Below, in pieces: positions 15,521 to 57,179 of a stretch of DNA of 64,000 nucleotides. Position numbers and translations under genes: made by a program. Position 1 is the first letter of the stretch, and each line of letters opens with the position of its first letter. The notes under the pieces are model-generated. The model was given only the letters and a program-made list of their open reading frames with translations. It did not search any database and had not been told where the DNA came from. The stretch comes from Arthrobacter sp. PAMC25564 (GTDB lineage: Bacteria; Actinomycetota; Actinomycetes; Actinomycetales; Micrococcaceae), in assembly GCF_004798705.1 (NCBI RefSeq), contig NZ_CP039290.1, forward strand, positions 868,001 through 932,000, in the 5' to 3' direction.

Positions 15521-15544
15521 GTTGCGGTGCTAGGGGTTGGCTCC

Positions 15545-16126
15545 TCACCCGAGCTGGACGCCGAAGTCGACGGCGACTCCGTGCAGCCCTGACGCGTATC
15601 CCTGGCCGACGGCGCGGAATTTCCATTCCGCGCTGCTGCGGTAGAGCTCCGCGAAGATCATGCAGGTTTCGGCGGCCGCGTCTTCGGTGAGGTCATAGCG
15701 GACCACTTCGGCATCGGTTTCATCATTGACCACCCGGCAGAACGCATCTCGAACCTGTCCGAAATTCTGCCGGCGTGCCTCCGCATCGTGGATGGAAACC
15801 ACAATGACGATCCTTTCAATGTCGGCCGCGACCGCATCCAGATCTATGAGAATCTGCTCGTCGTCGCCTTCACCCTCGCCGGTGAGGTTGTCACCCTGAT
15901 GGACGACGGAGCCGTCCTTCGAGGAGAGCTGGTTATAGAAGATGAAGTCATCGTTTGAACGGACCCGGCCGGAGGCTGACACCAGCAGGGCCGAAGCATC
16001 GAGGTCGAACTGCTGGCCGGCGGTGGTGCGGGGGTCCCAGCCCAGGCCTATCATTGCCCGCCGGAGACCAGGGTCGGCCTTCGTCAGGGACAGGTTGCTA
16101 CCTTTGCTGAGGGTCAGAGTGGACAT
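15545..16126 (-). CDS. TerD family protein
   Basis: A 193-residue TerD-fold protein of the tellurium-resistance/stress group. MSTLTLSKGSNLSLTKADPGL is the usual opening, followed by GLGWDPR, FDLDASALL, FYNQLSSKDGSV and the acidic calcium-binding loop GDNLTGEGEGDDEQI. Late strands (CMIFAELYR, WKFRAVGQGY) complete the family. TerD proteins bind calcium and are predicted to act with vWA and membrane partners at the membrane. It follows the second terD by 48 bases and is transcribed away from the large vWA/tubulin/GTPase operon. Confidence 0.92.
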   Translation of the reverse strand: MSTLTLSKGSNLSLTKADPGLRRAMIGLGWDPRTTAGQQFDLDASALLVSASGRVRSNDDFIFYNQLSSKDGSVVHQGDNLTGEGEGDDEQILIDLDAVAADIERIVIVVSIHDAEARRQNFGQVRDAFCRVVNDETDAEVVRYDLTEDAAAETCMIFAELYRSSAEWKFRAVGQGYASGLHGVAVDFGVQLG

Positions 16127-16174
16127 GAATGGCTCCTTGTCTTGTTGCGGGTGCGGATCTGGCCGGGCGTGCGG

Positions 16175-16765
16175 CTACAGAACGCCAGCCGCATTGGCGA
16201 TTACGTCGACGGGGGTGCGGCCCTGGGCGGGTGCGCCGATGGCCTGGAACGTCCACGTGCCGCCGTTGCGCGACAGCTTGGCCATGATCATCGCTGTGTA
16301 CCGGCCGGTTTCTGCCAGCGCATAGCGCGACACTTCGGGGCTGCCTGGGACGGAATCGTCGATCACGCGGCAGAAGGCGTTCTGCACCTGGTCGAAGGTC
16401 TGCTGGGAGTAACTGGTGATGGTGAAGACAATGTGCTGGACCGAGGCTGAGACCCCGGTCAGGTTGACCAGGATGGTCTCGTCATCGCCGTCGCCATCGC
16501 CCGTCAGGTTGTCGCCGGTGTGCTGGATCGAGCCGTCCTTGCTGGCCAGCTGGTTATAGAAGACCGTGTCGACATGGATCTTGTTGGCGTCGAAGAGAAT
16601 CGCCGAGGCGTCGAGGTCGATCTCGACGGCCTTCTTGCCGCCGAAGAAGCCCTTCCTGGCTGGCACAGCAGCGTCCCAACCGAGGCCGAAACGGACATTG
16701 GTCAGTGTCTCACCGTTCTGCTTGGTCAGCGACAAAAACTGACCCTTCTGCAAACTCAAGCTCAT
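16175..16765 (-). CDS. TerD family protein (second copy)
   Basis: A 196-residue paralogue of its neighbour and first gene of the terD pair. It starts MSLSLQKGQFLSL and carries GLGWD, IDLDASAILFD, FYNQLASKDGS and GDNLTGDGDGDDE (calcium loop). A short KKGFFGGKKAVE-like insertion precedes the LDAS strand. The in-frame Met four codons upstream is less likely than MSLSLQKG, which matches the family start. It lies back to back with the 18-kb operon, sharing a 477-base intergenic region, so joint regulation is plausible. Confidence 0.92.
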   Translation of the reverse strand: MSLSLQKGQFLSLTKQNGETLTNVRFGLGWDAAVPARKGFFGGKKAVEIDLDASAILFDANKIHVDTVFYNQLASKDGSIQHTGDNLTGDGDGDDETILVNLTGVSASVQHIVFTITSYSQQTFDQVQNAFCRVIDDSVPGSPEVSRYALAETGRYTAMIMAKLSRNGGTWTFQAIGAPAQGRTPVDVIANAAGVL

Positions 16766-17069
16766 TCTGGTTCCCACTTCCGTTGATCTTATGCGGTTTG
16801 CTGCTCAGTGACTGGACACAACTGCAGAACGGATTCATTCGCTCCGGATGCGCGTGTTGAACACGGCATTGTCAAGGCCGAGCGTATGCCTTCAGGACTG
16901 CGAAATACATCCCGGAAGAGAGTCCCCCAAGACTTCTCGCATCATATTAGTTGATCGCAGAATATCTACCTTTTCCGCGCAAAATTCTTTCGGGGCCCAC
17001 GTTTTTTCGGGCTGGACACGACATATTCGACCCATGTTTCGTCGGTTTTTGAAATTGGAAATCTTTTTG

Positions 17070-17098
17070 TTGTGCAGGCGGGTGCTTGGACATAGTAT
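17070..17098 (+). promoter_or_regulatory. candidate promoter of the large vWA/tubulin/GTPase operon
   Basis: TTGTGC, a 17-base spacer and TAGTAT form a good sigma-70-like promoter in an unusually AT-rich stretch (about 16940-17100) of the divergent intergenic region. It points toward the operon and leaves a 5' leader of about 140 bases that contains a long hairpin. Confidence 0.5.
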
Positions 17099-17170
17099 GG
17101 CCGCAAGAAGCGCCTGTGACTTGACATGGGGCCGGAGAATATGGCATTCCCGGGCCTTCGAGTTGACGGG

Positions 17171-17211
17171 CCGGCACGAGTGCCGCTGTGCGCCAGCGGC
17201 ACTCGTGCCGG
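17171..17211 (+). repeat. perfect 18-bp hairpin in the operon leader
   Basis: CCGGCACGAGTGCCGCTG (17171-17188), a five-base loop TGCGC, then the exact reverse complement (17194-17211). The stem lies between the candidate promoter and the first gene, ending 31 bases before its ATG. No T-run follows. It could be an attenuator, an RNA stability element or a protein-binding site. Confidence 0.7.
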
Positions 17212-17242
17212 GCTTTGCGGCCATGAAATGGGGGAATCAAGC

Positions 17243-17734
17243 ATGTCCAACGGGCCTAGCCCCTTTGACTTCAGTCAATACAGCGGGACTCCGGCGAACA
17301 GTCAATCGCCGGCTCCAGCGGACGGCCAATTCGGCGACGCCCAGAACCGTGTGGCACCCGCCGACCCATTTGCAGGATTTGGTGGTTCTGTTTCAACCCT
17401 TCCCCACGCAACTCACGACGCAACGGGTTCTGAAGTTGTTGCGGCACCCATGCTTTGGCTGTATATTGCGGCAGCCGCGGCCGCCCTTTCGATTGGCGTG
17501 GCCCTCACATTTGGCCAACTGCCGGCAGCGGCTATTTCCGCCTGGTTCCTGGGCGGGCCGGTGGCTATTGCAGCCGTGGCGCTGTTCTCGTTGAAGGACA
17601 CAAGGGCACGGACATTTACGCTTTATTCGGGCAGTGCTGTGGCTCCATGGATGCAACGGCTGGCCCTGCTGGCAAGTCTCGTGGCCGTCGTCGTGAGCGC
17701 GCTGCACATCGCAAACTGGGCAGGCCGGCTTTGA
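17243..17734 (+). CDS. small membrane protein, first gene of the vWA/tubulin/GTPase operon
   Basis: A 163-residue protein. A hydrophilic Pro/Ser/Gln-rich N-terminal tail of about 60 residues includes PFAGFGGS. Three or four TM segments follow (MLWLYIAAAAAALSIGVAL, AISAWFLGGPVAIAAVALF, LALLASLVAVVVSALHIA). A purine-rich GGGGGAA precedes the ATG chosen here; the alternative ATG five codons upstream is possible. Its stop overlaps the TTG start of the vWA gene (TTGA). No family recognised. The position suggests a membrane anchor or partner of the operon products. Confidence 0.7.
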   Translation: MSNGPSPFDFSQYSGTPANSQSPAPADGQFGDAQNRVAPADPFAGFGGSVSTLPHATHDATGSEVVAAPMLWLYIAAAAAALSIGVALTFGQLPAAAISAWFLGGPVAIAAVALFSLKDTRARTFTLYSGSAVAPWMQRLALLASLVAVVVSALHIANWAGRL

Positions 17735-20553
17735 TCCGCCGCTGGCTGGCGGCGCTGACCGCCGCAGCGCTGTGCGCCGCCCTTCCGGCCCTCGGAGCAG
17801 GTTCCGCGCTTGCAGCAGCCCCGGCTGCGCCGGCCCCGGTTGCAACGGCGGAAAAGACCTCGACCCAGGTGGATGATTTTCGAGCCTGCGTCGCCGGTGG
17901 CGGGGCAACGGACATATTGCTCCTGGTCGACGAGTCGTCAAGCCTGCAGGGAACGGACCCCGAAAATGCCCGCGTGACGTCGGCGTCCTACCTGGTCAAA
18001 CAACTGGCAGACTTTGCGACCGGCTCGAAGGCGGACCTGAGCGTCGCGGTAAGCGTCTTCGCCCAGGGCTATTCCCGAATCGACGACTGGACGTCGCTGG
18101 ACAACACGACCCTCCCGGGCGTCCAAGCCACCATCGCTTCACTGAAAGACCGCGTCCAGGGTATGGAGACCGACTATTGGACGGCCCTGGACGGTGCCCG
18201 GACTGAGCTCGCTGCCAGGGCCGCAGCCCGTCCCGGAACACAAAGCTGTCAAACGCTGGTCTGGTTCACCGACGGTGCCATCAACTACACCATCCGTCAA
18301 AGCAACGAGGACAAGGCACTGTTTGGCGCCGCCAAGCCATTTGCTCCCGACGTGGAGCTGACCAGCCAGGCCGCCGTCGAGCAAGTCCGGCAGTTGGCTG
18401 TTTCGGACATTTGCCGGGGCGGTGGCCTGGCTGACCAGCTGCGCTCATCGCACGTCTCAGTTTTCGGCGTGGGCCTGCAAAGCGGCGAACCATCGGATTT
18501 CTCGTTTCTCGAATCTGTGGTGGCCGGTAAATCAACTTCGGACTCCTCGGAATGTGGAAAACTGACTGCACCCATCCCCGGTGAGTTCCATCTGGCGACG
18601 GACATCGACGGACTGCTGTTCGCCTTCGATGGCGTGAGTTCACCGAAGAGCCGTGCCATTCTCCAGACCAGCGGCATCTGCCAGGTGGCCGTCTGCGCTG
18701 ACAGCGCACACCGGTTCGTGCTTGATCAGTCCACCCCTGCTGTCCGGGTGCTGGCGACAGCCGATGCCCCGGGCATCTCGGCGTCGCTCTTGGATCCGCT
18801 GGGCCACCTTAGCCAGCTCCCCAGGACGAACGTCGGCACCGAGGTAACGCTCGCGGCCGACGGCAGTTCGTTGAAGTACACGTGGCTGTCCGAGAAAACG
18901 GTCGTGATTTCCATGGCGGCAGGTGCTGGAAGCAAGTCCTGGAGCGGATTGTGGCAGCTCGCATTTACGGACCCGGCCGGCCAGTCGGGGGGCAAACCCT
19001 CCCGGTCCAGCATCCACATCGAGGGGAGCCTCAAGCCGGCGTGGCTCAATCCGGCAGCATCTCCGCTCCACGTGGGCGAGAAGATCGGCAATATCCAGCT
19101 GGGACTGCTGGACGCCGCCGGAAACCCGGTTGACCCCGGCTCGCTGCTCGGTGACGTAAAACTGACGGCCTCGTTGGTTGGCTCCGAAGGCAAAACGATG
19201 GTCGTGGCTGATGCGCTGGGCAAAGCCGACATTGCGAAGCCGGTCACCCTGGATCTCACCGGGTTTTCCGTCGGGGCTGCCGAACTGAAGCTGGACCTGG
19301 CCATCACGACGGCACCAACGACGGCAGGCGGGAACCCTGTCCCGGGTACGGCGCTGACGCCCGCTTTGGCATCTGTTCCGGTGAACCTGCTTCCTCCGGC
19401 AGAGTTTCCCGTGGTGGGTTCGAAGATCGATTTCGGCCAGATGGATGGGACGTCGCAGGCATCCGCCGCGCTTCAGGTCTCCGGCGCCGGTTGCGTCTGG
19501 CTGGCCGCGGGCAAGTCACCGGACATCGTGGCGTCGCCCGCGGCTTTGGGCAAAGTGACGATCGGGCTCGCCAAAGCCTCCGGACCGGAAAGCTGCATCA
19601 AGGTCAAGGACGTCAATTCCCTGCCGATGACTTTTGCGGCAGACCAGCCGGACAACGGTTCGGTCAACGGCCGGATTGAGCTCATGATTGCGCCCGACGG
19701 CGAACCGGGCAGGGCTTTGCCGGTGAGCGTGGCGTTTACGGCGAGCATGTCCAAGCCCCTAAATACCACCAATTTCCTGCTGGCATTGATCGTGGCCCTT
19801 GTGCTTGGCCCCGGCATTCCGTTGCTGCTGATGTACGGCGCCAAGTGGTTCGTCGCCAGGATCCCGGGACGTGTGTTGTCCGGCGAGATCATCCCTGTGA
19901 CCATTTCCCACCAACAGCTGCTGCGCGACGGCCAGCCCTTCGTCATCCGGGACACCGACCTGACCGACCTTGTTCCAATGAAGGCCTCGGGCTCACGATC
20001 ACTCACGGTGGCCGGGATCGAGCTGCGTGCCAAGACAGGCTGGTCTCCACTGGGATCCGGGTACGTGGCTGTGCTGGCTCCCGCCCGGTACGGCGTCGGA
20101 TCAGCAGCCCCCGCCGCCGACCGGCGCGGGCTCACCCCGCGGCTGCCCCTTGCGGTCCACAACCACTGGGTCCTGCTGGTGGACCCGATGGGGGATCCGG
20201 CGTCGGCCTCGGTCCTGGTGCTGACCGCCGGGGATGCCTCGCCCGCGGAGAAGAAGGACATCGCGGCCGACATTGCGCGCCGGCTTCCGCTGCTCAGGGA
20301 GCGCCTGGCCGAAGCGATGCGCGCCGCGGACGTCGCTGAAGCCACTACCCCTGGTCAGGTGCCCGGGTCCGGACCGACAGCATCCGGAGGCGCCGGCGGA
20401 TTTTCCGGGTTCAGCGCGGCAAACCGGGGTGCCGGGCCGGGGGGATTCAGCGGATTCGGCGGCGCCAGCCCGGACCAGGCCCCGGTACCGGAACCGGCCT
20501 CCGGATCGCAAGACCCCCAGGTCACGAGTCCGTGGGGCACCCCGCCTCCGTGA
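17731..20553 (+). CDS. secreted/anchored vWA domain protein
   Basis: A 940-residue protein starting at a TTG that overlaps the previous stop. MIRRWLAALTAAALCAALPALGAG is a signal peptide. The vWA domain follows, with the MIDAS motif DESSS at residues 67-71, YSRIDDW, and VWFTDGAINY supplying a late Asp. A long beta-rich extracytoplasmic region leads to one TM helix (about residues 680-705, LLALIVALVLGPGIPLLL). A C-terminal part of about 235 residues is thus predicted to be cytosolic. It ends in a Gly/Phe/Pro tail with GGFSGF twice. The design, an outside vWA sensor and an inside tail, suits a transmembrane link to the cytosolic tubulin-like and GTPase proteins. That link is inference. Confidence 0.85.
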   Translation: MIRRWLAALTAAALCAALPALGAGSALAAAPAAPAPVATAEKTSTQVDDFRACVAGGGATDILLLVDESSSLQGTDPENARVTSASYLVKQLADFATGSKADLSVAVSVFAQGYSRIDDWTSLDNTTLPGVQATIASLKDRVQGMETDYWTALDGARTELAARAAARPGTQSCQTLVWFTDGAINYTIRQSNEDKALFGAAKPFAPDVELTSQAAVEQVRQLAVSDICRGGGLADQLRSSHVSVFGVGLQSGEPSDFSFLESVVAGKSTSDSSECGKLTAPIPGEFHLATDIDGLLFAFDGVSSPKSRAILQTSGICQVAVCADSAHRFVLDQSTPAVRVLATADAPGISASLLDPLGHLSQLPRTNVGTEVTLAADGSSLKYTWLSEKTVVISMAAGAGSKSWSGLWQLAFTDPAGQSGGKPSRSSIHIEGSLKPAWLNPAASPLHVGEKIGNIQLGLLDAAGNPVDPGSLLGDVKLTASLVGSEGKTMVVADALGKADIAKPVTLDLTGFSVGAAELKLDLAITTAPTTAGGNPVPGTALTPALASVPVNLLPPAEFPVVGSKIDFGQMDGTSQASAALQVSGAGCVWLAAGKSPDIVASPAALGKVTIGLAKASGPESCIKVKDVNSLPMTFAADQPDNGSVNGRIELMIAPDGEPGRALPVSVAFTASMSKPLNTTNFLLALIVALVLGPGIPLLLMYGAKWFVARIPGRVLSGEIIPVTISHQQLLRDGQPFVIRDTDLTDLVPMKASGSRSLTVAGIELRAKTGWSPLGSGYVAVLAPARYGVGSAAPAADRRGLTPRLPLAVHNHWVLLVDPMGDPASASVLVLTAGDASPAEKKDIAADIARRLPLLRERLAEAMRAADVAEATTPGQVPGSGPTASGGAGGFSGFSAANRGAGPGGFSGFGGASPDQAPVPEPASGSQDPQVTSPWGTPPP

Positions 20554-20607
20554 CAGGTCCCAGTCCCAGCGACGAAGTTTTCGATTACAGAGCAGATAGG
20601 TAGGGCC

Positions 20608-23600
20608 GTGCGCAAATTCCTGGTTGTTGGTTGTGGGGGATCCGGTGGAGCGACGCTGGCGTTCATGATGGATCAGCTCAAGTCCGAGCTCCATGCGCAA
20701 GGCATCGATGAGATCCCTGCGGGATGGCAGTTCGTCCACATTGATGTGCCGCTGGCTCCGGATACTGCCATCCCGGGGGTGGGCAATGTGTTCCAACAGG
20801 GCGGCACCTACATCGGGACGGGACCCAACAGCGGCAGTTACCCGATCCTGGACAACGCGCTGAGCCACAGACTTTCCAACGAGCGGTCGCTGGAAGAGAT
20901 CGGCACGTGGGCTCCGCGTGACCCGAACAAGATCGGCGTTCCGATCCACAGTGGCGCCGGCCAGATGCGGGCTGTTGGCCGCATGATTACCTTGAGTAAA
21001 GCGTCCGACGTGCGGATGGGACTTGAGCGTGCGTTCCAGAAACTCAACCTCGTGGAAACCAATGCCCAGATGGAGCATGTACAAGGACTCCTGCCGGGGT
21101 CGGACGCGTTCCATTCCGTCGAGCCTCCAATCGTCCTGGTGGTTTCATCGATGGCGGGAGGCGCCGGCGCGTCCATGGCACTCGACGTCTGCCGCCTCCT
21201 CACACTTGTCCCCGGCGTGACTCCTGGCCTCATGGGTGTGTTCATGCTGGCGGCCGACGTGTTTGACAGTTTGCCGCCGGCAGCCCGCGGCGGCGTTCGC
21301 GCCAATTCGCTGGCCATGCTCGGGGAAATCGTGGCCGCCCAAACCGTTGCCGCGCAAGAGCACGACGCACGGACGCTGGCAGCCCTCGGCGAACAGAGCG
21401 GCGCCACGGGTGAAAAGCCGTTCGCGCGCGTGTTCCCGGTCGGCCGGTTCTCGGGCGTGGAGCGGACCATGTTTGGAGACGGCACGCAAAACGCCGTATA
21501 CCGCGGCCTCGGCCGGGGCCTTGCTGCGCTGATGCGAAGCGGCAGGGCGTCGGGCGACTTCGTCTCCTTCGACCTCGGCAACCTATCCGAGGACAAGCCG
21601 GCACGCCGCCAGTTCCTTGGCTGGGGAGCCGAGTCAAACGACGTCGCATGGGGGGCCTTCGGGTTCGCCAGCCTCAGCATGGGTCGTGACCGCTACGCGG
21701 AGTACTCGGCCCAGCGCTTGGCGCGTACGGCAGTGGATCGATTGCGCAGCGGACATCTGCAAACCGGGAACACGGCGTCGTCCGTGGAACAGGTCAACGC
21801 ATTGGTGACCAGCCAGTGGAGCAACATCTGTGGGGCCTTGGGGCTGCCCACCGCGGCGGAGGGCGCGCTGGGGCAGAGCCAGGTGCTGGAGTGGTTCACC
21901 GAGACGGCATTCAGGCGCCAGGACGTCACCCGGCTGGCAGCGACGATCTCGGATGAGCAGGTGGTGCCCTATCTCCCCGCGCCCGCGGGAAACCATGCGG
22001 CGCAGTGGTTGCCGGTGCTGCGGCAGAAGCTTCAGGAGCGCAAGGTCGCGGTGACCGCGGGAACATCCGAGGCAGCTTATGCCTGGGCGTACGACTACAA
22101 AGACGTCCTCCTCGGACATTTTATGAGCCAGATCGAGCAGGCCGTCACGCAGTTCGGGCTGCCGTATGCGCGGGCCATCGTTGAACGGCTGGAAGCCCTG
22201 CTGCGTGACCAGTTGGTGGTCACGCTGAAGGAGATGGCCAACCACGGGATGCCGAATGTTGCGGCCATACCGGGGCAGTTCGAGAACGAGGTCGGGCAGA
22301 TGAACGTCATTGCCAACGGCCAATCCGTCATCGACCGTTTGGCCGGGTTGATCCGCGGACAGGCGACAGACCTCTTGTTTGCGCAGGCCGCCGGGTCAGC
22401 GTGCAACGTCTTCACCGCCTTCGTATCGGAGGTGCTGCCGTCGATGAAGGACGCGCTGAGCGAAGCGTTGGACGTCCTGACGGGGGCCGTTGCCGCGACG
22501 TCAACTCCGGTGGGCCTGGCCGACGTCGCCACGGACCAGTACGGGTCCTGGCCCTCGGACGAGGACCGCGGCGTGCCGCAGCGCTTTGACGTAGCGGACA
22601 ACGAAATCCTCATCACGGAGTCCAGATTCTTCGCCGGCCAGTATGAAGCGGATGTGACGGCCAGCGGTGGCGGAGCGGCCGGACAGCTCGCGTTCCGTGA
22701 CGCACGCAGGCGGCTCACGGACCATGTGATCAGTGGCAGATGGCCGGTTGCAAGCGGATCTGCCGCTCCCGCCGGCCTGCTCGAACAAGTCGCGGCCTGG
22801 CGGCCGGGAGAGTTCAACCGCGATCCGGTCTCACACGCGCCGGTAACTCCGTCACGGCCGCGGTTTGTCCTCCACACCGCGCCATCCAAGGTCCTGGACC
22901 GGGCGCGGCAGTACGTCGCCCGCCCCCATGAGCCTTTCCACCGGTTCTGTTCGCTGTCACTACGCGACTACGTGCTGGGCCTGGACGCGCGGGAATCGGA
23001 GATACCGCAGCGGAAGGCAGAACTCGCGACGAAGTTCGCGCAGGCCTTGAACCGGGCGGTACCGCTGATCGGCGTCAATCCCGACGTTGTGCGGATGGTC
23101 CACGACGCGTCCGTGGCGTACCGTTACAAGTTTTCGTCGATCCCCTTCATGGCAGTCGACGACCTCACCCAGATGCTGATCGCCAAAACGGCGGAGAATC
23201 CGAACATCGCCGAGGAAACGGCGGACATCTTGAGGGGATCACTCAGCGAAGACGCGAACGTGCAGCGGATCGACATCTTTGGCTCCTACCGGAACTATTC
23301 GCCCCTAGTTTTTGACTCCGTACTGGGCCCCGTGGCACAGCAATGGGCGGGCACCTCGCTGCCCGAGCGCAAGGGCTTCTGGAGCCACCGGAGGTCACGG
23401 CCGCTCGTTGCGTCCCTGCCCATGGGAGACGCGGAACGCCGCGCCATGATCGCCGGCTGGTTCGTCGGCCAGATCACCGGCCAGCTCCGGCTCCCGGAGC
23501 CGCCGTACGAAACCGCCGTCGAGATCTGGGACGAGTTGAACCGCAAATGGATCCAGTTCCCCAACCCGCTGTTGACTCCTCCGGCACAGTTCCTGGCCAA

Positions 23601-24159: not shown

Positions 24160-24160
24160 G

Positions 24161-26836: not shown

Positions 26837-26902
26837 TCCCCCGATCGAACCTGATTCCCCTTTCGCCGACCGCCAGGATGGGCGACCCCGCAGGAGATGT
26901 TG

Positions 26903-29327
26903 ATGACTGACAAGAAGTTCGAGGCCCGTTACCTGGCCCTGACGTTGTGGGCCGCAGATGCTGAGGCCCGGGGATTCCGCGTGCCCTGCCCTGGGGATCT
27001 GGCATCGATAGCAAGGGCGAAGACCGTCGACGTCCCCGGCGTGGACGCTGACCTGGTCGGGGCCTGGCCCAAGGCGATCAAGGAAGTCATGAACCAGGTG
27101 GCATTCAACATCGCCGAGCCGCACCGGCAACTGGGTCCCGAACTTGATGAGCCTGAAACCGATGCCGGGCGAAAGCCCGCAACGGAGAGCAGGTCCGATC
27201 CATCGCCGGTGGTCGGACCGGGAGCGCCGGCGGCGCCCGAGGCGCAGCCCCGAACGCCCGAGGCGAGAGTCCTCGAAGCGCTCAAGGCCTGGCGTGACGG
27301 CGAAACCGCGAACGGCCGGTCGTTCATTTCAAACCTGAAGGAGTCGCACCTCCATCAGGTGGCCAACTCCGGGGTGACCACTGCGGAGGACATCCGAAGG
27401 ATGCTTCCGCCCGCAGCCGGACGGTTCGCGGACGAGGTCGCGGACGTCGTCGGGGAGCCTGATCCGGGAGCTTCCCCAAGCGTTCCCGCCGTCGAGGTTC
27501 CGGTTCCGACCGGTCCAAAGGGAACGGTTCCGGCCGAACCCAAGAGCGTGCCGGCGGCCGAGCCGCCGGTCAGGCAGCCTGCCCCCGCTGAAGCCGGCCG
27601 GGCGCCGGCCGAGCCGATAGATCCAAAGTCCTTTGCTCAGTTCGAATATGGCCCGTCCACGCTGAATCCGGTCGCGCTAACCATCCGACGGGACGGCGAC
27701 GGTGCCCGGCAGTATTCGTGGCCACACAGCGGATCAGATCAGCCGATCAAGATCTACCGGGTGATCTCGAGCGATGACCACCCGCCCTATTCACCCGACC
27801 GGGCAGACCTCGTTTGTGTCGCGCACAGCGACTCAGCCGTGGATGGCAGGCCGCTCGGAGCCGCTGTCCGGCACCTTCAAGTCTGGCTCAACGAAGGACC
27901 TTCGATCGAAGCCGCGGTGGCAGCCCAGCCCACCCTGCATGCGCAAGGTGCCTTCGTAGGCGAGGTCCTCGGCGTTAATGTCACGGAGGATGAGGGGCGG
28001 ATCATTGGACAATGGTCGGCATTGCCCGGTACGCGAAGCGTCCAGGTGTTCCGGATTCCGATCGAAAAGGCGGCCACCGCGGGAGGAGACCCGCAGTACC
28101 GGATCCTGGCCGAATCAGACAATCTCGGCGGATTCGTTGACGCGCGCGCCGAACGGGGATCCCATTACCTCTACCAGGTCTATGCGGAAGCCGTTGTGGA
28201 CGGCGTCGCGCGGTTGTCGAGCCCCGCCAACAGTTCACTAAAGGTCTCAGCGGTGCTGGAGCCGGTCTCGGACCTGGAAATCCGGCTCAGCTCCGATCCG
28301 GACATACCGTACTTCGAATTGGAATGGAGCGCACCTGCGGGCGGAACGGTGTCGATTTACCGCACCGAACTGCCGCCAACTTCAGGCATCGAGTTGGAGG
28401 CGTTGTCCGCTGATTCTTTGGTGATCAACGGTTTGACGGACGAATCGAGGCTGTCGCATCCCATAGCGCTTTCACAGGGGCGGGCCTCGATGGTCAGCGT
28501 TCCGTGGCCGTCGGGTTGGACCAGGGCATACTTCACACCTGTGACTCTGCTTGACGGCATGGCGCTCGTCGGAGGCACGACCTTCAAGTCGCGCCGGGAA
28601 AAGGTCCGTAATCCCAAGATCCTGGAGCGCGTCAACAGCCAGATCCTCACCTTCGACTGGCCGGCCGGTGCAGCGTCGGTGCTGGTGTATCGCGGCCAGA
28701 CAGGGGACAGACCCGGAGCTGGCGCTGGGCGGAGATCCACTGGAAATCACCCAGGCGGACTACCAGCAGCGTGGGGGATTGCATTTCCATGACCAGCTTC
28801 CGTCCATGGGCTGTGACCTTCACCTGGTGCCCGTCAGTTTCGAGGCCGGCAGACGCGTGGCCGGGGCGCCAGCGACGGTGGCGTATCCGCCGATATTGAG
28901 GCTCGGCTACCAGATCGGGGTCAAGAAGAGCCTGCTCGGTAAGACCAGCGGTCTCACCGTCAGCGTCCATGCGATCGATTCGACGCCGTCCATGCCTCCT
29001 TTCGTCCTGGTGTACAACCGCGAGCGGCTCCCCCTGACTGTTCTCGATGGGGTCGCCCTGAGCATGGTCAGTGATGGGGATGAGGCAACCCCGCCGGCCC
29101 GTCGATTTGTTCCCGATACCAATCCTGGGCCCGACGGGTCCCGCACCTGGAAAACGGAGCCCGAGGCATGGTCCCGTGAAGTCAGTCCGACCGAGGGCTA
29201 TGTCCGGCTGTTCGCCGACTTGCCGGTCGATGTCTTGAGGATGGTCGCCCTGCTCGATCCGCCGCTTCGGTCATTGCGGCTCGCCGGCCCCGTGAACCCC
29301 TTCAAGGGGATGTTCGATGGGCGCTGA
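26903..29327 (+). pseudogene. FN3-like beta-domain protein, broken by a one-base frameshift
   Basis: The start is the ATG six bases after AGGAG. The first frame runs in phase to about 28702, then reads nonsense to a stop at 28792. The protein continues in the +1 frame from about 28707 (TDPELALGGDPLEITQADYQ) to a stop at 29327. The switch falls on GGGG at 28703-28706. Removing one G gives a single frame of about 807 residues. The N-terminus is a small helical domain (about 75 residues), then a Pro/Glu-rich linker, then repeated beta-sandwich units (IIGQWSALPGTRSVQVFRI, FELEWSAPAGGTVSIYRTE, LTFDWPAGAASVLVYRG) that look like FN3-type domains. Either a real inactivation, a sequencing error in a G run, or less likely programmed frameshifting. 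Confidence 0.7.
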
Positions 29328-32088
29328 CGGGGGCAAGATGACAGTGGAAAATTCGCCCAAGGGTGTTTCGCGGTGGGCGCAGCTCACGTACGCCTCATTT
29401 GACCCCGGGAACGGTGCCGGAGGCGGATGGCAAGTCAAGGACACCGCCGGAAACCTGAGCCACGACGAAGTCGAAGCCCTGAAATCCCGGATCGTGACAT
29501 CATTTGATCCTGCTGTCCCGTTGAGCGCGTTTCCGAGTCCCGCGGAGCTGGAGGCAATGCCCCGGAGACTGACGTACATCGCCGACGGCGGGGGCCGGGG
29601 TTCCTACTGGCACAGCGTCATGGCCGGCCGGGATTCCACGGGCCGGCCCGGGAACGTTTTCAGCCACGTGCTGCTGGACCGCACCATTGACGCGGCCGAA
29701 CCAGCGATCAGGCCCATTGAATTGTGGCGTTCGCCGGACCTGATGTGCCCCTTCGGTCCCGAACAGGTTGCCAGGTCCGGACTGGCCAACACCGGGCAGC
29801 CCGTCTTTGGGGCTGGATTGAGCCGGGAGACTGTCCTGGAATTCCTCTTCGACCCCGGCCGCTGGCGCATCGGGCTGCTCAGTGTGCTGCTTGACGCGGC
29901 GTCGGCAGCGCTGCGCGGGGGACCCCGGATAGTCCTTGTTGCCGACTCTGCGGAATCGGCTGCGCTTTGGATCGGTGCTTTGGCAAGCCTGACGTCCCCG
30001 AGCACCGCCCGTTGCCTGAGTTTCTCGGTCTACGAGAGAGCCGGTGCCCTGGCGACGGTCTTCGAACGGGGCGTACAGATAGCGTGCGTGCCGCGGAGCG
30101 ACGTGCCGGACTTGAGCCCGGACGCCGGCTACGCGGTTCTCGATGAGCGCGAAATGCCGGACCTCGGTGAAGTGGGCGGTCAGCCGCATGAGACCCAGGC
30201 CGGATCGCTGATCGTTGCGACGGCGTGGTCAGAACTCGCTCAGTCGGTGCTGCTGAACGCAGCTACTGCGGCTGCGGCTTTGGCTGAACTCGATGACATT
30301 TCGGCCCGTGTTGGGGATACGGGCCGGGAACCGGCCTGGCCTCTTGCGATGGCAGTTCTCAGGCTTGCCGAGCTATTTGGCGATCTCCAGGATGAGGCCG
30401 CTGCTGTGGTCAAGATGCATTCTCCTGACGCTCTGCGGCACGACGAGCAACTGCTTTCCTTGGCCCTATCGAGTATGGGCAGGGACAACGGCGGCGGGGC
30501 TGTTCAGGCTTGGGGCGATCTGCAGCGCGTGGACGTTTCCCCGTCCATCCGGGACACCCTGATAAACGTCTACATCGCGCGTGCCCTCGACGATCCTGAG
30601 TGGAGGGCCCGCACAGGGCCCATGCCCCTCCCACCCGATTACCGGCCCGAACTCGCGACGCCGGAATTGCGCGCTTCCGCCCGTCAGGCCGTTCTCGGAA
30701 TCCGGACCCAGGTCTTGGCGGAGCCCCGACACGACTCGCTGTACGGGGCGTTGCGGTTCCTTGATTTCCTTTGCCGCGGCGGGTTGGCAGATCTCTGGGA
30801 CCCGGACGATGACGTCCTTGCCGAGGCCACGACGCAAATTCTGGAGTGCGTCGTCTCCGCCGTGATAGACGACGACACCGCCGCGGCGGCCATGGTGACC
30901 GCCGTCGGCCAGTTGTCGCCCCGGCTCTGCAGATCCATTGTCGCCGCTGTAGGAAGCACCGCGAGATTCCACACCTCCGCGGCCGGACACCGCATCCCGC
31001 CGCCCTTCTGCGACTGGCTCCTGTGGGCGGCCGCGCCCGCTGAGCTCGACCGATTCTTCCGGACCGTGACGGAGACCTCGCAGATTCCGGAACTTCTCGG
31101 CGAAATTGCAATCTGGCAGTGTGTATCCGGCCAGGGAACATCGGAGGGAGCGCGGCCGATCGCGGCCATGGCACTGATAGCGGACGACCCCAGCAGCCCT
31201 CACAACCGGTTGTGGGACGCAGTCTTCACGTCGGCCCCCGCGTGGAGCGCCGGCGAACTGCTGGTGATCGAGCGTCGCTGTCCCCGGTATCTGCCGGGGC
31301 AAACCTTTGTGCCGGCACTCGTGCTCGAGCCGCGATCCGGGACGCTGGATCAACTGGTGGATCTGATCGAGAAGGAACGCGGGGACGGCGACGGCGCCGA
31401 AGTCGATTTCGCGCGTCTCAGGCTTGAGTCCCGCGGGGGGTGGACGACGAGATATGCCGAACAGCTTCCCGGCGTTGCGGACTGGATGATTGAGACGGTC
31501 CAGGCTGCGCTGGAGGCGGTCCACCCGCGTAGCCTGCCCCCGGAGGTGACGGATGCCGTCGTCGTCGCGGCAGCGCTGGTTTCCGGGCATCGTCCGGGCG
31601 AGTATGTATGGCCATCCTTGGTGCGGAACCTCGTGGCCGGCTACAAGCCGGAGCCGGAGGCCCGGGCCGTTGGCATCTTGCAGGACTGCGCAGACCAGGG
31701 GCTTCTGGGCGGGCAACTCCTCCAGCGTCTTGCAGAAGTTGCTCTGGAAAATGCGCCCGGCTATCCGGATCCGCCATCCGCGCAGCGGCATCCGCTGTCC
31801 GGTGTGACCTGGGATCCGGGTGACGGGCCGGTGCCGTTGTTGGAGGTTCCACTGCGCAGGGTCCTGGCAACATGCCACGCGTCCACTTCCATGGCACTGT
31901 CCGAGTCGCTCGCCGCCCGGCTCTGGCCGAAATCTTCGGAAGCGATGACCGATCGCCGTGCAGAGAAGGCATACGACGACCGGGACCGGTTCCTGCGGTC
32001 CTGGTGGAAATCCTTGGTTGAACCAACAGCAAGCCCAAGGCCGACATTTCTGGGTGCCCTCAGGCCCGGAACAAGAAAGGATCGCTAA
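29317..32088 (+). CDS. GTPase-associated protein 1 (GAP1-N2 type)
   Basis: A 923-residue protein. Its N-terminal 250 residues carry the marks of the GAP1-N2 domain: WAQLTYASFDPGNGAGGGWQVK, PRRLTYIADG, YWHSVMAGRDSTGRPGNVFSHV and RPIELWRSPDLMCPFGP. The rest is helical, consistent with the GAP1-M and GAP1-C parts of the family. GAP1 proteins were defined as partners of TRAFAC-type GTPases in predicted NTP-dependent conflict systems, and such a GTPase is encoded two genes downstream. AAGGGGA six bases before the first ATG supports this start, which overlaps the end of the frameshifted gene; the ATG at 29338 is the alternative. The stop overlaps the next start (TAATG). Confidence 0.8.
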   Translation: MGADGGKMTVENSPKGVSRWAQLTYASFDPGNGAGGGWQVKDTAGNLSHDEVEALKSRIVTSFDPAVPLSAFPSPAELEAMPRRLTYIADGGGRGSYWHSVMAGRDSTGRPGNVFSHVLLDRTIDAAEPAIRPIELWRSPDLMCPFGPEQVARSGLANTGQPVFGAGLSRETVLEFLFDPGRWRIGLLSVLLDAASAALRGGPRIVLVADSAESAALWIGALASLTSPSTARCLSFSVYERAGALATVFERGVQIACVPRSDVPDLSPDAGYAVLDEREMPDLGEVGGQPHETQAGSLIVATAWSELAQSVLLNAATAAAALAELDDISARVGDTGREPAWPLAMAVLRLAELFGDLQDEAAAVVKMHSPDALRHDEQLLSLALSSMGRDNGGGAVQAWGDLQRVDVSPSIRDTLINVYIARALDDPEWRARTGPMPLPPDYRPELATPELRASARQAVLGIRTQVLAEPRHDSLYGALRFLDFLCRGGLADLWDPDDDVLAEATTQILECVVSAVIDDDTAAAAMVTAVGQLSPRLCRSIVAAVGSTARFHTSAAGHRIPPPFCDWLLWAAAPAELDRFFRTVTETSQIPELLGEIAIWQCVSGQGTSEGARPIAAMALIADDPSSPHNRLWDAVFTSAPAWSAGELLVIERRCPRYLPGQTFVPALVLEPRSGTLDQLVDLIEKERGDGDGAEVDFARLRLESRGGWTTRYAEQLPGVADWMIETVQAALEAVHPRSLPPEVTDAVVVAAALVSGHRPGEYVWPSLVRNLVAGYKPEPEARAVGILQDCADQGLLGGQLLQRLAEVALENAPGYPDPPSAQRHPLSGVTWDPGDGPVPLLEVPLRRVLATCHASTSMALSESLAARLWPKSSEAMTDRRAEKAYDDRDRFLRSWWKSLVEPTASPRPTFLGALRPGTRKDR

Positions 32089-33140
32089 TGCCCACATATT
32101 TGCTGGAGGGCACGAATGAAGTCCGGCTCACCGTCCGTCCCCTTAACATGACAGTGCGTGTCGAGGGCGGGGGCGTGGAGGCCTGGCTGGAGGTGACGCA
32201 GGGTGGCCGCTCCGTCCCGTCCGTGGTCCGGCCGCCGAGCATGGTCATCCTGCCCAGGGTTGAGGCCGCGACGACTGTCTCCGTGATTCCGACTGGCAGG
32301 GATCGTTTCCCGTCACAGACGGTTGTGCATTTTTCTGTTGCCGTCGAAGACCGGGAATCGGGGGATCCGCAACGAGCCGTTCTGGTTCCGGTCGATGTTT
32401 CAGGATTGGACAGGAAGGACCTGGTCTCGGTCGAACTGGTCGACGGAGCATTGAGCCTCAGGGCTGCCCAGAACAAGGAGGATTCCGATCTGGGGGCACT
32501 CGGAAACGCGGCACGTGTCGCCGCTCGCGAATTGCTCGGTGTGCAAAGCTTCGATGACGGTGCGGCCTTAACAATGAATATTGCGGTGGACCGCTCGGGT
32601 TCGGCGTTGCATTTGGCCAGGAACGGAACGTTCGCCGGACTGGTCCGAGTCCTGACCGGTGTCGCCCAAGTGATCACGAACGGTACCGATATTTCCGCTG
32701 GGATCATTGGGAACTCGGCGGAGCGGCTCCCCTCGCAGCCTCTGGTGGCTCTTCCCCAGTCGGTACAGGACGCACAACTTAGCCGCATTCCCTCGAACGG
32801 CTTCCGGTCGGCGTCGCGTCTGCCTTGGACACAGCCCGATAATTCGAACTCCCTCACCTATCTTCTGACGGACTCGCTGCCGGCAGACGTCGTCGAACTG
32901 GAAACCGCCGAGCAAGCGGCACCGGGCCGGCGGCACATCGTCGCCGTCACGTCCCCCGGCGTCTGGCGGCTGCTGGGCGGTACAACCGTTCACAGTACTG
33001 TTGTTGAGCCGCCCGCGGGGGACGAAACGCTGGAAGCCAGGCTTCTGGCCGACCCGGCAGAATTACGCGGACTCGTAACTTCGCTATTGCAAAGCGTTTT
33101 TGACCGTGACACCGTTTTCGCTGAAAGGACCGGTCTGTGA
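32088..33140 (+). CDS. vWA-like protein of the operon
   Basis: A 350-residue protein. The N-terminal 120 residues are beta-rich (YLLEGTNEVRLTVRPLNMTVRVEGGG). A vWA-like segment follows in which LTMNIAVDRSGSALHLARNG holds a DxSxS MIDAS motif at residues 168-172, then a helix GTFAGLVRVLTGVAQVI as in TerY-type domains. SPGVWRLLGG lies near the end. This is cytosolic, unlike the first vWA protein, since no signal or TM segment is seen. Coupled to both neighbours: the start overlaps the GAP1 stop by one base and the stop overlaps the GTPase GTG by four. Assignment as vWA rests on the MIDAS and the following helix. Confidence 0.6.
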   Translation: MPTYLLEGTNEVRLTVRPLNMTVRVEGGGVEAWLEVTQGGRSVPSVVRPPSMVILPRVEAATTVSVIPTGRDRFPSQTVVHFSVAVEDRESGDPQRAVLVPVDVSGLDRKDLVSVELVDGALSLRAAQNKEDSDLGALGNAARVAARELLGVQSFDDGAALTMNIAVDRSGSALHLARNGTFAGLVRVLTGVAQVITNGTDISAGIIGNSAERLPSQPLVALPQSVQDAQLSRIPSNGFRSASRLPWTQPDNSNSLTYLLTDSLPADVVELETAEQAAPGRRHIVAVTSPGVWRLLGGTTVHSTVVEPPAGDETLEARLLADPAELRGLVTSLLQSVFDRDTVFAERTGL

Positions 33141-34300
33141 CGACCCGATGCCCTTCGTGCTTCCAGCGATTGCCCGAAGACTCCTATTTGTGGCTCTGCC
33201 GCTCGGGCAAATGCCCCACCTCACCCGACGATGTGGCCAGCCGCTACATGGGGAAGACGGTCAGCAACGGCCCTGCTGTGCGGCAGGACCGACCTCCGGC
33301 GGCACCCCGGGGCTGGGCGCCCACGGCACCGGTCCAGTGCCCCCAATGCCACGAGATTGCACCGGAGGCCTGCCCGCATTGCCACCAAACCCTCATTGAG
33401 GGATGGCGCGAAGCAAGCGCTACCTGCATCGCCATGAATGGGGCACGGGCCACCGGAAAATCCCTCTACATCGCCGTCCTCATCAAGCAATTGGGCCACT
33501 TTATGGCCACGATGAACGGCACAATTCACTTTGCAGATGCGCGAACGCAGGAAACGTACAAAAACATATACGAAAAGCCCCTATTTGAAGCCCGTGGACT
33601 GATGCCGGCAACCCCACCCGCCGCTACGCACGATTCGTATGTGGTGGAGCCTTTGATCTTTAGCCTTGGCATCCTGAATGGGGTCAGGAGATACCTGGTG
33701 ATCCGTGACGTGGCAGGCGAGGACATGGAAAAGCCGCCAGCAGACACGATGCCATTGGCTTTCCTGCGGCACGCTGACGGTGTCTTCTTCATGTTTGACC
33801 CGCTCACCGTTCCGGACATCCGCGCCAAGGTGCAGGACCTCATCCCGGCGCAGCTCCGCCTGGGCGGGGATCCCAACACGGTCCTGAGCAACCTGCTTAA
33901 CATCATCGGAACGGCGACGCCGCCGCTGGCCGTCATCTTGTCGAAGTTTGATGCAATGCAAGAGCTCCGGAATGTGGATGATGTCCAGTGGCAATCAGTC
34001 ATGTCCAATTCCGGTGCGGCCTTCCTGCGGGACCCAAGCCTGGAGTCCTCCAAGTATGACCAGGACGACGGCGAACTCCTGCACGAAGAGGTGCGCAGCC
34101 TGCTGCACAAACTGAACGCACGGCACCTGGTCCTGAGCCTGGAGAATCCGGGCGCCGGCCAGCGCATCCCGTACAGGTTCTTTGCAGTTTCCGCACTCGG
34201 CGAGTCACCGTCAGGCGACGCCGTCCACTCACGGGGAATCGCGCCGTTCCGGTGCCTTGATCCTGCCAAATGGGTACTAAGCATGACGGGTGCCATCTAG
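33137..34300 (+). CDS. zinc-ribbon TRAFAC-like GTPase
   Basis: A 387-residue protein. Two zinc-binding clusters open it (Cys5, 8, 21, 26 and Cys68, 71, 79, 82), followed by a P-loop GTPase domain. Walker A is GARATGKS at 102-109, the switch II/Walker B DxxG is DVAG at 191-194 in LVIRDVAGEDM, and the base-recognition motif is SKFD at 269-272 (NKxD-like). This matches the GTPase component paired with GAP1 proteins in predicted conflict systems. The domain is single and complete. The GTG start overlaps the previous TGA, so it is strictly coupled to the vWA-like gene. Confidence 0.82.
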   Translation: MTTRCPSCFQRLPEDSYLWLCRSGKCPTSPDDVASRYMGKTVSNGPAVRQDRPPAAPRGWAPTAPVQCPQCHEIAPEACPHCHQTLIEGWREASATCIAMNGARATGKSLYIAVLIKQLGHFMATMNGTIHFADARTQETYKNIYEKPLFEARGLMPATPPAATHDSYVVEPLIFSLGILNGVRRYLVIRDVAGEDMEKPPADTMPLAFLRHADGVFFMFDPLTVPDIRAKVQDLIPAQLRLGGDPNTVLSNLLNIIGTATPPLAVILSKFDAMQELRNVDDVQWQSVMSNSGAAFLRDPSLESSKYDQDDGELLHEEVRSLLHKLNARHLVLSLENPGAGQRIPYRFFAVSALGESPSGDAVHSRGIAPFRCLDPAKWVLSMTGAI

Positions 34301-34353
34301 CCATCCGCCGAGTCCGGAACCCGCGTTCAGCCGCGGTGGGAGGAATGGTCACA

Positions 34354-35307
34354 GTGAATCTGGGCATGTGGGCCAATTTCGCGATTCAGTCCGGGCTCAT
34401 CGCGGTCCTGGCTGCCAGCCTTTTCGGCGCGATAGCCGGCTTTGGACTGGCCTCGATCGGCCGATTCAGCCGCACCCTTGGAGTCGCGGCCGGCATCCTC
34501 GTTCCGGTGCTGGGCGTGGCCATCCTGGCGGCAGTCGCGGTCGCGAGGAGGGAGCGCCGGTCTGGTCACGACACCGCCCTGCCGTGGCAGTGGAAGAGCC
34601 GCAGCGGCATTGTTTCCCTGGCTAGCCTCGCGGCGCTCACTGGCGTCGTTGCGGTGACGGCCTTTGTCGATTGGTTCGTGGTCCGGATTCCCGGGGTCTC
34701 GCGGATCAGCGTTGGTGCGTGGGGAACGGTGCTCGGCGGTGCCGTAGTGGTCACGATTGCGCTCATGATCCTTGGGGGCCTGCCGCTGCTCAGGCGTCCC
34801 AGCCGGGGCTCTGCGATTTTGCTGGCGTGGGTCGGCAGCACCTGGATGTTCCTGGCCGGTGTAGCCGTCGCGCTGCGTGCGCCGGTTGTGGAACTGGCCT
34901 CTTCCCTGGGTGCCCTGAAGTTCACGGTCGCGGACGCGTTGGGGGCGTTGAACCTGGATGCGGGCGCGGTGGGGATCGACTTGCCGCCAACGGTGGACCC
35001 CGCCATGCTCGGGCTTTCCGGTGCCAGGGTCGAACCGGGCGCCGTTGATTTGGCTGCCCCCATCCAGGGGCTCCAGTTTGAGATCGGCCCGGCGTGGTAT
35101 TGCCTGCTTCTGTTCTCCGCAGGACTCCTGCTGTGGTCTTTTCTCGTAGTCCGGCAGGCCGACAGGATAGCCCGCCGCCCTTCACCGGGCGGCTCAGGCA
35201 TGGACCGTCAAGCTGCGGCCGGACCGGAAGCTCCGATTCCGGTCCGCCCGCTCAGCTGGAGCCAAGAGCGGTCCAGCGACGGATCGTATTGGGGTACCGG
35301 AAACTGA
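34354..35307 (+). CDS. multi-TM membrane protein, last gene of the operon
   Basis: A 317-residue protein with about six TM helices (for example LIAVLAASLFGAIAGFGLA, GVAAGILVPVLGVAILAAVAV, GIVSLASLAALTGVVAVTAF, WYCLLLFSAGLLLWSFLVV). An extracytoplasmic segment of about 80 residues precedes the last helix. The cytosolic tail is Pro/Ser-rich and ends SSDGSYWGTGN. GGGAGG lies ten bases before the GTG chosen here and only one base before the ATG at 34345, so the GTG is preferred. The stop codon lies inside a hairpin shared with the convergent gene. Function unknown; probably the membrane base of the system together with the first gene. Confidence 0.65.
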   Translation: MNLGMWANFAIQSGLIAVLAASLFGAIAGFGLASIGRFSRTLGVAAGILVPVLGVAILAAVAVARRERRSGHDTALPWQWKSRSGIVSLASLAALTGVVAVTAFVDWFVVRIPGVSRISVGAWGTVLGGAVVVTIALMILGGLPLLRRPSRGSAILLAWVGSTWMFLAGVAVALRAPVVELASSLGALKFTVADALGALNLDAGAVGIDLPPTVDPAMLGLSGARVEPGAVDLAAPIQGLQFEIGPAWYCLLLFSAGLLLWSFLVVRQADRIARRPSPGGSGMDRQAAAGPEAPIPVRPLSWSQERSSDGSYWGTGN

Positions 35308-35323
35308 CAGGCGAACCTGTCAG
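35304..35323. terminator. hairpin covering both convergent stop codons
   Basis: CTGACAGG, loop CGAA, CCTGTCAG: a perfect 8-bp stem. It includes the TGA of the membrane protein on the plus strand and the TGA of the small membrane protein on the minus strand. No T-run follows on either side, so this may be a factor-dependent or weak bidirectional terminator. Confidence 0.5.
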
Positions 35324-35619
35324 CGGTCCAGCATTCCACCCTGCGGAACAACCCCAACGGAAGACGTCTGCGGCTGGAAGTCACCGGGAAGCTCCACCGC
35401 GGAGGCGTGGTGGACCAGGCGGTCCCACGCGTGATTGATGCCGTGGACCAGCCCCAGCAATGTGCTGGCCACGATGGCCCAGGCGAGGCGCCCGACGCCC
35501 ACCAGGACCAGCGCCGCGAAGGCCGCCGTCATCATGAAGAGGGCAATCACCAAGGCAACCACGAGAGTTCCAAAGAACACCATGGTTGCCGTTTCCACTG
35601 CGCTTAGGTCGAACTGCAT
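35320..35619 (-). CDS. small membrane protein, paralogue of the 12.4-12.8 kb gene
   Basis: A 99-residue protein with two TM stretches (ATMVFFGTLVVALVIALFMM and AFAALVLVGVGRLAWAIVAS) and a polar tail. FFGTLxVAxV and LVLxGVGRL are shared with the 119-residue protein at 12.4-12.8 kb; the tails differ. It converges on the large operon and is divergent from jetA. Function unknown. Confidence 0.65.
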   Translation of the reverse strand: MQFDLSAVETATMVFFGTLVVALVIALFMMTAAFAALVLVGVGRLAWAIVASTLLGLVHGINHAWDRLVHHASAVELPGDFQPQTSSVGVVPQGGMLDR

Positions 35620-37402: not shown

Positions 37403-37404
37403 CG

Positions 37405-51899: not shown

Positions 51900-57110
<5,211 letters not shown>

Positions 57111-57179
57111 CACACACTCTCTTCGTGAACGGATTCAAAAGACGCTCACACCATGAAGAGAGTACAAAGAAACAAGACT

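Follow-up and report, generated by a model that had tools for sequence, protein, structure and literature searches.

Kaur et al. (2020, eLife 9:e52696) predicted an actinobacterial system made up of a tubulin, a GAP1-N2 protein, a DO-GTPase, an HRDC-FNIII protein and a membrane vWA protein, and Makarova and Koonin (2010, Biol Direct 5:33) described FtsZl1-vWA-GTPase operons, for which they proposed a role in membrane remodelling. We found no experiments on the tubulin/GAP1-N2 system in the open-licence literature. Neither the FtsZl1-type tubulin relatives nor the TerD proteins have a settled job. A cassette that joins both, and whose putative sensor has a domain in common with a nuclease, offers a testable hypothesis for both: an effector under the control of a GTP-driven assembly at the membrane.

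Here we analysed a stretch of 64,000 nucleotides of the chromosome of the soil bacterium Arthrobacter sp. PAMC25564 (the window), in which eleven genes, a terD pair and a nine-gene operon, lie in one 19.8-kb block. We put the probability at about 0.5 that this locus belongs, as an inserted and Ter-coupled member, to the predicted conflict systems of the GAP1-N2/DO-GTPase/tubulin type (for immunity or against envelope stress), GTP-gated and anchored in the envelope.

Comparison with described systems

The locus resembles the system of Kaur et al. in its single tubulin with a C-terminal extension, its GAP1-N2 protein and its zinc-ribbon DO-GTPase, and its FN3-like protein and membrane-bound vWA protein may correspond to the FNIII/HRDC-type and vWA proteins of that system. 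The first-pass annotation had taken the whole set to be uncharacterised. This view had to be given up: the core was already predicted by Kaur et al., and FtsZl1-vWA-GTPase operons were described by Makarova and Koonin. Its description of GAP1-GTPase pairs as a known theme was borne out. The passages of Kaur et al. on the tubulin system, however, name neither TerD nor a TerF-type vWA nor a docking domain of a nuclease (their main text has TerD a single time, in connection with VMAP systems), and TM0, 2TM and vWA2 as recurrent members, together with core-only relatives, go beyond those passages. With the operons of Makarova and Koonin the locus shares a Tubulin_2/FtsZl1 protein, a vWA protein and a divergent GTPase with membrane proteins nearby, whereas GAP1, FN3 and TerD are not named in the parts of their account considered here. 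The TerD genes, and a TerF-type vWA after the operon in one relative, recall actinobacterial Ter (tellurite) clusters; the operon, in contrast, is no component of ordinary ter clusters (TerD in 66 of 395 family genomes, Tubulin_2 in 5, both in 4). The core closely matches a described system, and coupling to TerD in this manner was not met in those parts of the literature that were searched.

Genes of the locus

The first reading placed a terD pair and, divergent from it, a nine-gene operon at 15545-35307; profile matches and open reading frames confirmed both:

15543..35365, no strand: inserted block; absent, with the flanks together, in 7/7 same-genus genomes compared
15545..16126, minus strand: terDa, TerD-domain protein (Pfam TerD); 86% identity to the third terD in the four-gene ter cluster that the genome has elsewhere
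16175..16777, minus strand: terDb, TerD-domain protein (Pfam TerD); 75% identity to the fourth terD in that cluster
16778..17242, no strand: divergent intergenic region, presumed promoter
17243..17734, plus strand: gene 1 (TM0), 163 aa, Pro/Gly-rich N-terminus, 3 hydrophobic segments
17731..20553, plus strand: gene 2 (vWA1), exported vWA protein, MIDAS DESSS (PF13519, 1.8e-7)
20608..24159, plus strand: gene 3, Tubulin_2 (FtsZl1-type) domain with a long C-terminal region (PF13809, 2.3e-43)
24146..26836, plus strand: gene 4 (2TM), two-TM protein
26897..29327, plus strand: gene 5 (FN3), FN3-like, split over two frames
29317..32088, plus strand: gene 6, GAP1 with GAP1-N2 and GAP1-M (PF20013, 1.3e-19; PF20014, 3.4e-9)
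32088..33140, plus strand: gene 7 (vWA2), N-terminal beta domain and vWA fold
33137..34300, plus strand: gene 8, DO-GTPase2 with N-terminal zinc-ribbon cysteines (PF19993, 2.7e-9)
34270..35307, plus strand: gene 9, last and variable slot, 6 hydrophobic segments (6-TM)

The Pfam TerD E-values of the pair were 1.5e-80 and 6.6e-49. The region between the pair and the operon contains an 18-bp perfect inverted repeat (17171-17188 / 17194-17211), 31 bp ahead of gene 1. The tight packing noticed earlier was upheld, with 6/8 operon junctions overlapping by ORF limits and remaining gaps of 54 and 60 bp; if the 2TM gene is taken from ATG 24161, the start in the database copy, its junction becomes a 1-bp gap. 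vWA1 starts with a TTG that overlaps the stop of gene 1. Base composition by codon position supports the coding nature of genes 2-9, with a GC content of 0.69-0.80 at the third position versus 0.47-0.56 at the second (for FN3, the first piece only). Relatives of gene 1 were found in 18/20 other loci with the full gene set (see below), and on their evidence gene 1 is a real gene at 17243-17734; the ORF at 16848-17594 was dropped in its favour.

In the tubulin protein, PF13809 spans residues 5-377 of 1183, the single match in the whole genome. The T1 motif reads GCGGSG and the T4 motif AGGAGA, and the corresponding patterns were present in 22/23 and 23/23 loci, respectively. vWA1 has one TM segment beyond the N-terminal one and a Gly-rich tail; a Pfam search gave no fn3 match in it. 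An AF2 model of the 2TM protein (pLDDT 86.8) comprises an N-terminal alpha/beta domain, a TM hairpin of long helices with segments near residues 542 and 570, and a C-terminal domain. The GAP1-N2, GAP1-M and DO-GTPase2 matches were all over cut-off; that of the double zinc ribbon profile to the GTPase was weak (E 0.075). The GTPase of the window carries GARATGKS, DVAGE and SKFD motifs and three CxxC, and across 18 loci Walker A was present in 18, DxAGE in 17 and SKxD in 16. vWA2 has a vWA fold with an invariant MIDAS DxSxS, which is a real MIDAS fold. The TerF-like vWA profile PF10138 matched 5/16 vWA2 members (best E 0.0081), the protein of the window not among them, and hhalign of vWA2 against one TerF-like protein gave E 0.0012 at a probability of 19; these comparisons weakly suggest that the vWA2 family is TerF-like.

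The terD pair and the operon as one inserted block

In seven same-genus genomes the flanks adjoin without terD pair or operon, so that the two form one inserted block, whose limits differ by at most 60 bases from those first proposed. That the terD pair and operon came in as one stretch was thereby supported, both being absent in 7/7 genomes; two insertions, one after the other at a single site, may be an alternative. Genes next to the block match the JetA, JetB and JetC profiles. The comparison with the seven genomes placed jetABC outside the block, as old neighbours of the insertion site, and for that reason they are no evidence of a defence island. A Wadjet test found no jetD beside jetABC, the only JetD_C match of the genome lying far off at 3880082. 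Six of the eleven proteins of the block were scanned with PADLOC models, and none gave a match.

Distribution and linkage to TerD

Tubulin_2 is sporadic, occurring in 5/395 genomes of the family, 22/396 drawn from the order and 28/394 drawn from the class. A tubulin tree and neighbourhood census of 50 homologues split into three architectures. The core alone (vWA1-tubulin-2TM) made up 11/50 loci, including G159, which is cut by a contig end; the full architecture (core plus FN3-GAP1-vWA2-GTPase) 21/50, three of them contig-cut; and a distant type 18/50. The full loci form one clade (SH-aLRT 98). Homologues that mostly lack the neighbours would speak against a single system. This held in part: 11/50 have only vWA1 and 2TM and 18/50 are distant, but 21/50 are full. 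From the three architectures, experimenters can see which genes to delete and which to leave in place. The last operon slot varies, with a multi-TM protein here and a TerD, a TerF-type vWA or a docking-domain nuclease elsewhere; among the loci searched, only G921 has a sequence relative of gene 9.

The TerD-vWA theme recognised at first reading stood, in that the TerD link recurs in two clades and two positions, although 15/21 full-system genomes have no Pfam-detected TerD (14 when G766, whose last gene is weakly TerD-like, is taken as having one). Five of the six with Pfam TerD have it beside the system, and the sixth has a contig end there. TerD lies divergently upstream in one clade and is the last operon gene in the other (G494, G766, G841), and in L143, from the same genome as L051, a TerF-type vWA follows the operon. 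TerD is commoner than the operon in the family.

Proposed mechanism and rival explanations

The sensor, switch and output roles that follow were assigned from domain names. TM0, vWA1 and the 2TM protein would form a membrane platform, on which the Tubulin_2 protein would assemble with GTP. The MIDAS domain of vWA1, outside the cell, may be a metal-dependent ligand sensor, and the helix hairpin of 2TM a coupler or pore. FN3, GAP1 and the DO-GTPase would act as cytoplasmic sensor and switch, with the trigger recognised by FN3 and coupled to the GTPase by GAP1, and vWA2 and TerD, each of them a module that may respond to metals, might tune the assembly. Under attack by phages or on the envelope, output would pass through the swappable last gene and would likely be permeabilisation of the membrane or cleavage of nucleic acids. 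We infer a membrane-spanning GTP machine.

The terD pair might be a passenger, the operon having been copied from a donor ter locus with the two nearest terD genes carried along by chance. In G1111 and G921 the operon adjoins a four-gene ter cluster, whose two nearest genes correspond to the pair, and the genome of the window still has a four-gene cluster elsewhere. We lean against this possibility, since TerD is the last operon gene in a separate clade (G494, G766, G841) and terDa and terDb are both intact.

A cytoskeletal FtsZl1-vWA-GTPase complex that remodels membranes in envelope or vesicle biogenesis, rather than in conflict, appears unlikely. Such a role was proposed for the FtsZl1 operons by Makarova and Koonin, and the vWA1-tubulin-2TM core stands without the FN3-GAP1-GTPase part in 11/50 loci (one contig-cut), but the sporadic spread (5/395), the block insertion, the swappable last gene and the domain shared with a nuclease better fit accessory conflict modules. 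We consider it quite improbable that the locus extends the Ter system as a calcium, redox or envelope-stress response module with no immune function: 15/21 full-system genomes lack a Pfam-detectable TerD, and TerD far outnumbers the operon (of 395 genomes in the family, 66 have the former and 5 the latter, with 4 having both). TerD coupling in two clades and the weak likeness of the vWA2 family to TerF agree with such a module, as does SCO2368 of S. coelicolor, a sigma-E (envelope stress) target whose product rises with vancomycin (PMC6767563) and which the title of one reference calls a terD-domain gene.

The FN3 protein and the nuclease with a putative docking domain

The FN3 gene first reported within the operon is present, but its reading frame is interrupted. 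Two ORFs in different frames, 26897-28792 and 28551-29327, each match the FN3 profile, whereas the relative in L051 and that in L052/L151 consist of one ORF. The break reflects either a frameshift or an error in the sequencing, and with the gene split the operon copy here may be inactive. The protein consists of a likely docking domain at the N-terminus (about residues 5-95), an HRDC-like segment and an FN3-like part. Among ten whole proteins (nine FN3 proteins and the nuclease), Pfam fn3 matched one, weakly (E 0.04), and HRDC none; of three 68-aa pieces, only that of the window matched HRDC (E 0.02, 15.3 bits, below the cut-off of 23.8).

The N-termini of the FN3 protein and the nuclease are homologous (36% over 102 aa, E 5e-11), and this common domain is likely a docking domain. 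The GTP-driven assembly might accordingly recruit or release the nuclease, or another last-gene output, on attack. Ter proteins and the tubulin/GAP1-N2 machine would then be one modular immune system, its cassette plugging into ter loci or bringing its own terD pair, a reading that we hold to be tentative and rather doubtful. Searches of the window, and of 14 kb around the ter cluster elsewhere in its genome, did not turn up the nuclease with this domain. In relatives within Arthrobacter, a ter cluster lies on one side of the operon and this nuclease on the other. All 21 proteins found with the nuclease N-terminus carry PF13588 (HSDR_N-type), and in 14/16 nuclease-bearing genomes 1.3-2.6 kb separate the nuclease from the closest terD listed.

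The terD pair and the operon form one inserted unit

The block consists of two leftward terD genes and, divergent from them, nine rightward genes whose ends overlap or almost do so in the window. In order, the nine encode a small membrane protein, vWA1, a Tubulin_2 protein, a 2TM protein, an FN3 protein, GAP1, vWA2, a DO-GTPase2 (hereafter GTPase) and a multi-TM protein. A Pfam scan of the block, which left out gene 1, matched TerD (twice), vWA, Tubulin_2, GAP1-N2 with GAP1-M, and DO-GTPase2; genes 4, 5, 7 and 9 gave nothing above cut-off. Named relatives are Pseudarthrobacter sulfonivorans (locus L051, genome G1111), an Arthrobacter MAG (L052, genome G1010) and two Corynebacterium (L053, L054). 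The first-pass annotation, two terD genes plus a nine-gene operon, was confirmed as to gene set, except that gene 5 is not one frame: it is split into two ORFs in different frames, each matching the FN3 profile. Its FN3 relatives in L051 and in L052/L151 (L151 carries the nuclease treated below) are single ORFs. The operon opens with gene 1:

17243-17734, rightward (+), gene 1, small 3-TM protein

Of the 20 other full loci (defined below), 18 have a relative of gene 1 ahead of the vWA gene (weakest E 0.012); none was found there in G487 and G179. At 17171-17211, 31 bp upstream of gene 1, an inverted repeat has perfectly matching 18-bp arms around a 5-base loop and is possibly an operator or leader hairpin. 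By eye, two adjoining membrane proteins, gene 1 (DPFAGFGG) and vWA1 (tail, GGFSGFGG), carry similar short Gly/Phe-rich motifs.

The acyl-CoA dehydrogenase gene upstream of the block was present in 12/12 same-genus genomes searched, and its neighbourhood was fetched for seven of them. Homology to the left flank stopped at 15536-15542 in all seven. In the right flank it restarted at 35366-35401 in six genomes, which have -2 to 28 bases separating the two flank stretches; in G063 it restarted at 35852, and the separation is 481 bases. Because the flanks lie side by side in 7/7 genomes, 15543-35365 (19.8 kb, both terD genes included) is extra in the window. The terD pair and the operon, proposed earlier as one set, are thus really one inserted unit, and the limits first given (15545 and 35307) fall at most 60 bases from its ends.

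Gain of 15543-35365 by the window is a simpler reading than loss, and two successive insertions at the same spot are a possible alternative to a single one. In the Tubulin_2 profile search of the family, G063, G927, G946 and G963 were listed as without match, and G1093 and G1096 were not among the matches. G1111 has the flanks joined at this site and carries its operon on another contig; between it and the window the system proteins are 45-71% identical and the acyl-CoA dehydrogenase 87%. The GC content of the block was 0.643 vs 0.685 and 0.676 in the 10-kb flanks. A search for an exact repeat of 8-16 bp joining the block ends found none.

Beyond the block, jetABC-like genes (JetA/JetB/JetC profile matches, no jetD beside them) occupy 35930-41804 and adjoin the acyl-CoA dehydrogenase gene in 7/7 same-genus genomes fetched; the lone JetD_C match of the window's genome is at position 3880082. 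A tandem pair of rRNA operons fills 51900-64000:

First rRNA operon: 16S 51900-53423; 23S 53987-57113; 5S 57351-57467
Second rRNA operon: 16S 59690-61213; 23S from 61777, running past the window end

Distribution and three architectures

Tubulin_2 was sporadic: it was found in 1/149 genomes of the family (5/395 in a larger draw), in 22/396 of the order draw and in 28/394 of the class draw. Gene maps agreed with a 50-protein tubulin tree (quick method, SH-aLRT support only) in giving 21 full loci (vWA1-Tubulin_2-2TM plus FN3-GAP1-(vWA2)-GTPase; SH-aLRT 98), 11 core-only loci (vWA1-Tubulin_2-2TM; 81, not starred) and 18 distant loci (100); G956 and G337 are long branches. Contigs cut the full loci G179, G381 and G467 and the core-only G159; G381 shows just vWA1-Tubulin_2-2TM before its contig ends and was classed as full by its place beside G467. 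The 18 uncut full loci all have FN3, GAP1 and GTPase, and 15 have vWA2, which was not found in L054, G302 and G337. By hydropathy, a small membrane gene precedes vWA1 in four of five core-only loci checked (G218, G160, G243, G956) and none does so in the fifth, G184.

The last slot varies. In the window, L053, G371, G280 and G921 the GTPase gene overlaps a downstream gene for a protein with several hydrophobic segments; TerD is the last gene in G494, G766 and G841; the genome of L051 (G1111) has a TerF-type vWA (PF10138, 7e-51) and a YbjQ protein; and G1010 has a nuclease. Large same-strand genes lie downstream of the GTPase after 18 bases in G487 and 125 in G302. The one in G487 (L082 4370-10504) encodes a 2044-aa Ig/cadherin/fn3 repeat protein. 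The six remaining uncut full loci showed nothing clear at this place (L054, which extends <1 kb past the GTPase, G169, G337, G272, G677 and G850).

Linkage to TerD

Pfam TerD was present in six of the 21 full-system genomes (G000, the window's own, G1111, G1010, G921, G494 and G841) and adjoined the system in five. The remaining genome is G1010, where 1366 bases separate the terD cluster from a contig end and gene 1 begins on another contig, 336 bases in; in the closely related G052 (flanks 96-97% identical) the corresponding two sides are 98 bases apart. The last gene of G766 is TerD-like below the Pfam cut-off (E 1.8e-4) and was missed by the genome-wide search. TerD-linked full loci form two separate clades in the tubulin tree, one with terD upstream and divergent (window, G1111, G1010, G921) and one with TerD as last gene of the operon (G494, G766, G841). 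In the family draw, TerD occurred in 4/5 Tubulin_2 genomes vs 62/390 others (Fisher one-sided p 0.003, kinship ignored). The 15 of 21 full-system genomes without Pfam TerD (14 when the TerD-like last gene of G766 is taken as TerD) argue against a general dependence of the system on TerD. No TerD was found in ten core-only genomes searched (all but G159), and one of 18 distant loci (G626) had a match in the fetched stretch, >12 kb off.

Elsewhere in the window's genome there is a four-gene terD cluster (L144, 316863-321032), beside which a membrane protein gene looks TerC-like by eye.

A probable docking domain shared with a ter-linked nuclease

A 371-aa protein of G1010, whose gene begins 80 bases past the GTPase gene, has a nuclease domain of the HSDR_N type (PF13588, 1.4e-5). 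The N-terminal part of this protein resembles the beginning of the window FN3 protein (36% over 102 aa, E 5e-11) and the FN3 starts of G921, G1010 and G1111 (E 9e-7 or better); among the other loci just one stretch of G324 matched (E 0.05). A search with this N-terminus among candidates of ~200-650 aa, a range in which long FN3 proteins could not turn up, gave 21 proteins, one almost identical to the query. All 21 carry PF13588, and E210 and K212 are conserved in at least 95% of them.

The nuclease was matched in 16 of 23 genomes of G1010's genus. A stop falls inside the matched stretch in 8/16, and the G911 match is in two pieces; these may be gene ends or decay. In 14/16, the closest terD among the matches listed is 1.3-2.6 kb away from the nuclease; at least two of the seven nuclease-less genomes (G113, G950) are among the TerD matches listed. 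From the ter region to the nuclease there are 102-409 bases in G966, G889, G052, G974 and G128, and 18.5-19.1 kb in the operon-bearing G921. In this genus, terD clusters regularly have the nuclease with its putative N-terminal docking domain (L151 17775-18890) beside them, even without the tubulin operon.

We infer a likely course in which the operon, whose FN3 protein has a domain in common with the nuclease of the ter region, was inserted next to a ter cluster, and a piece that included the two nearest terD genes later reached the window site. The docking-domain nuclease itself was not found in the window or in 14 kb round the genome's own ter cluster.

Comparison with described systems

The set had been put forward as uncharacterised. 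This was not borne out, since the accessible part of Kaur et al. 2020 already predicts its outline, with an actinobacterial tubulin theme close to the core of the window system; the HRDC and FN3 of that theme gave only sub-threshold matches in these loci. FtsZl1-vWA-GTPase operons were described in 2010 (Makarova and Koonin 2010, as far as that text was available). No experimental work on the tubulin/GAP1-N2 system was found in the open-licence literature. The Streptomyces coelicolor gene SCO2368 is a sigma-E target whose product increases with vancomycin, according to the available portion of PMC6767563; it is a terD-domain gene going by the title of a reference. The published accounts, in the parts available, do not describe the TerD coupling or the putative docking domain shared by FN3 protein and nuclease.
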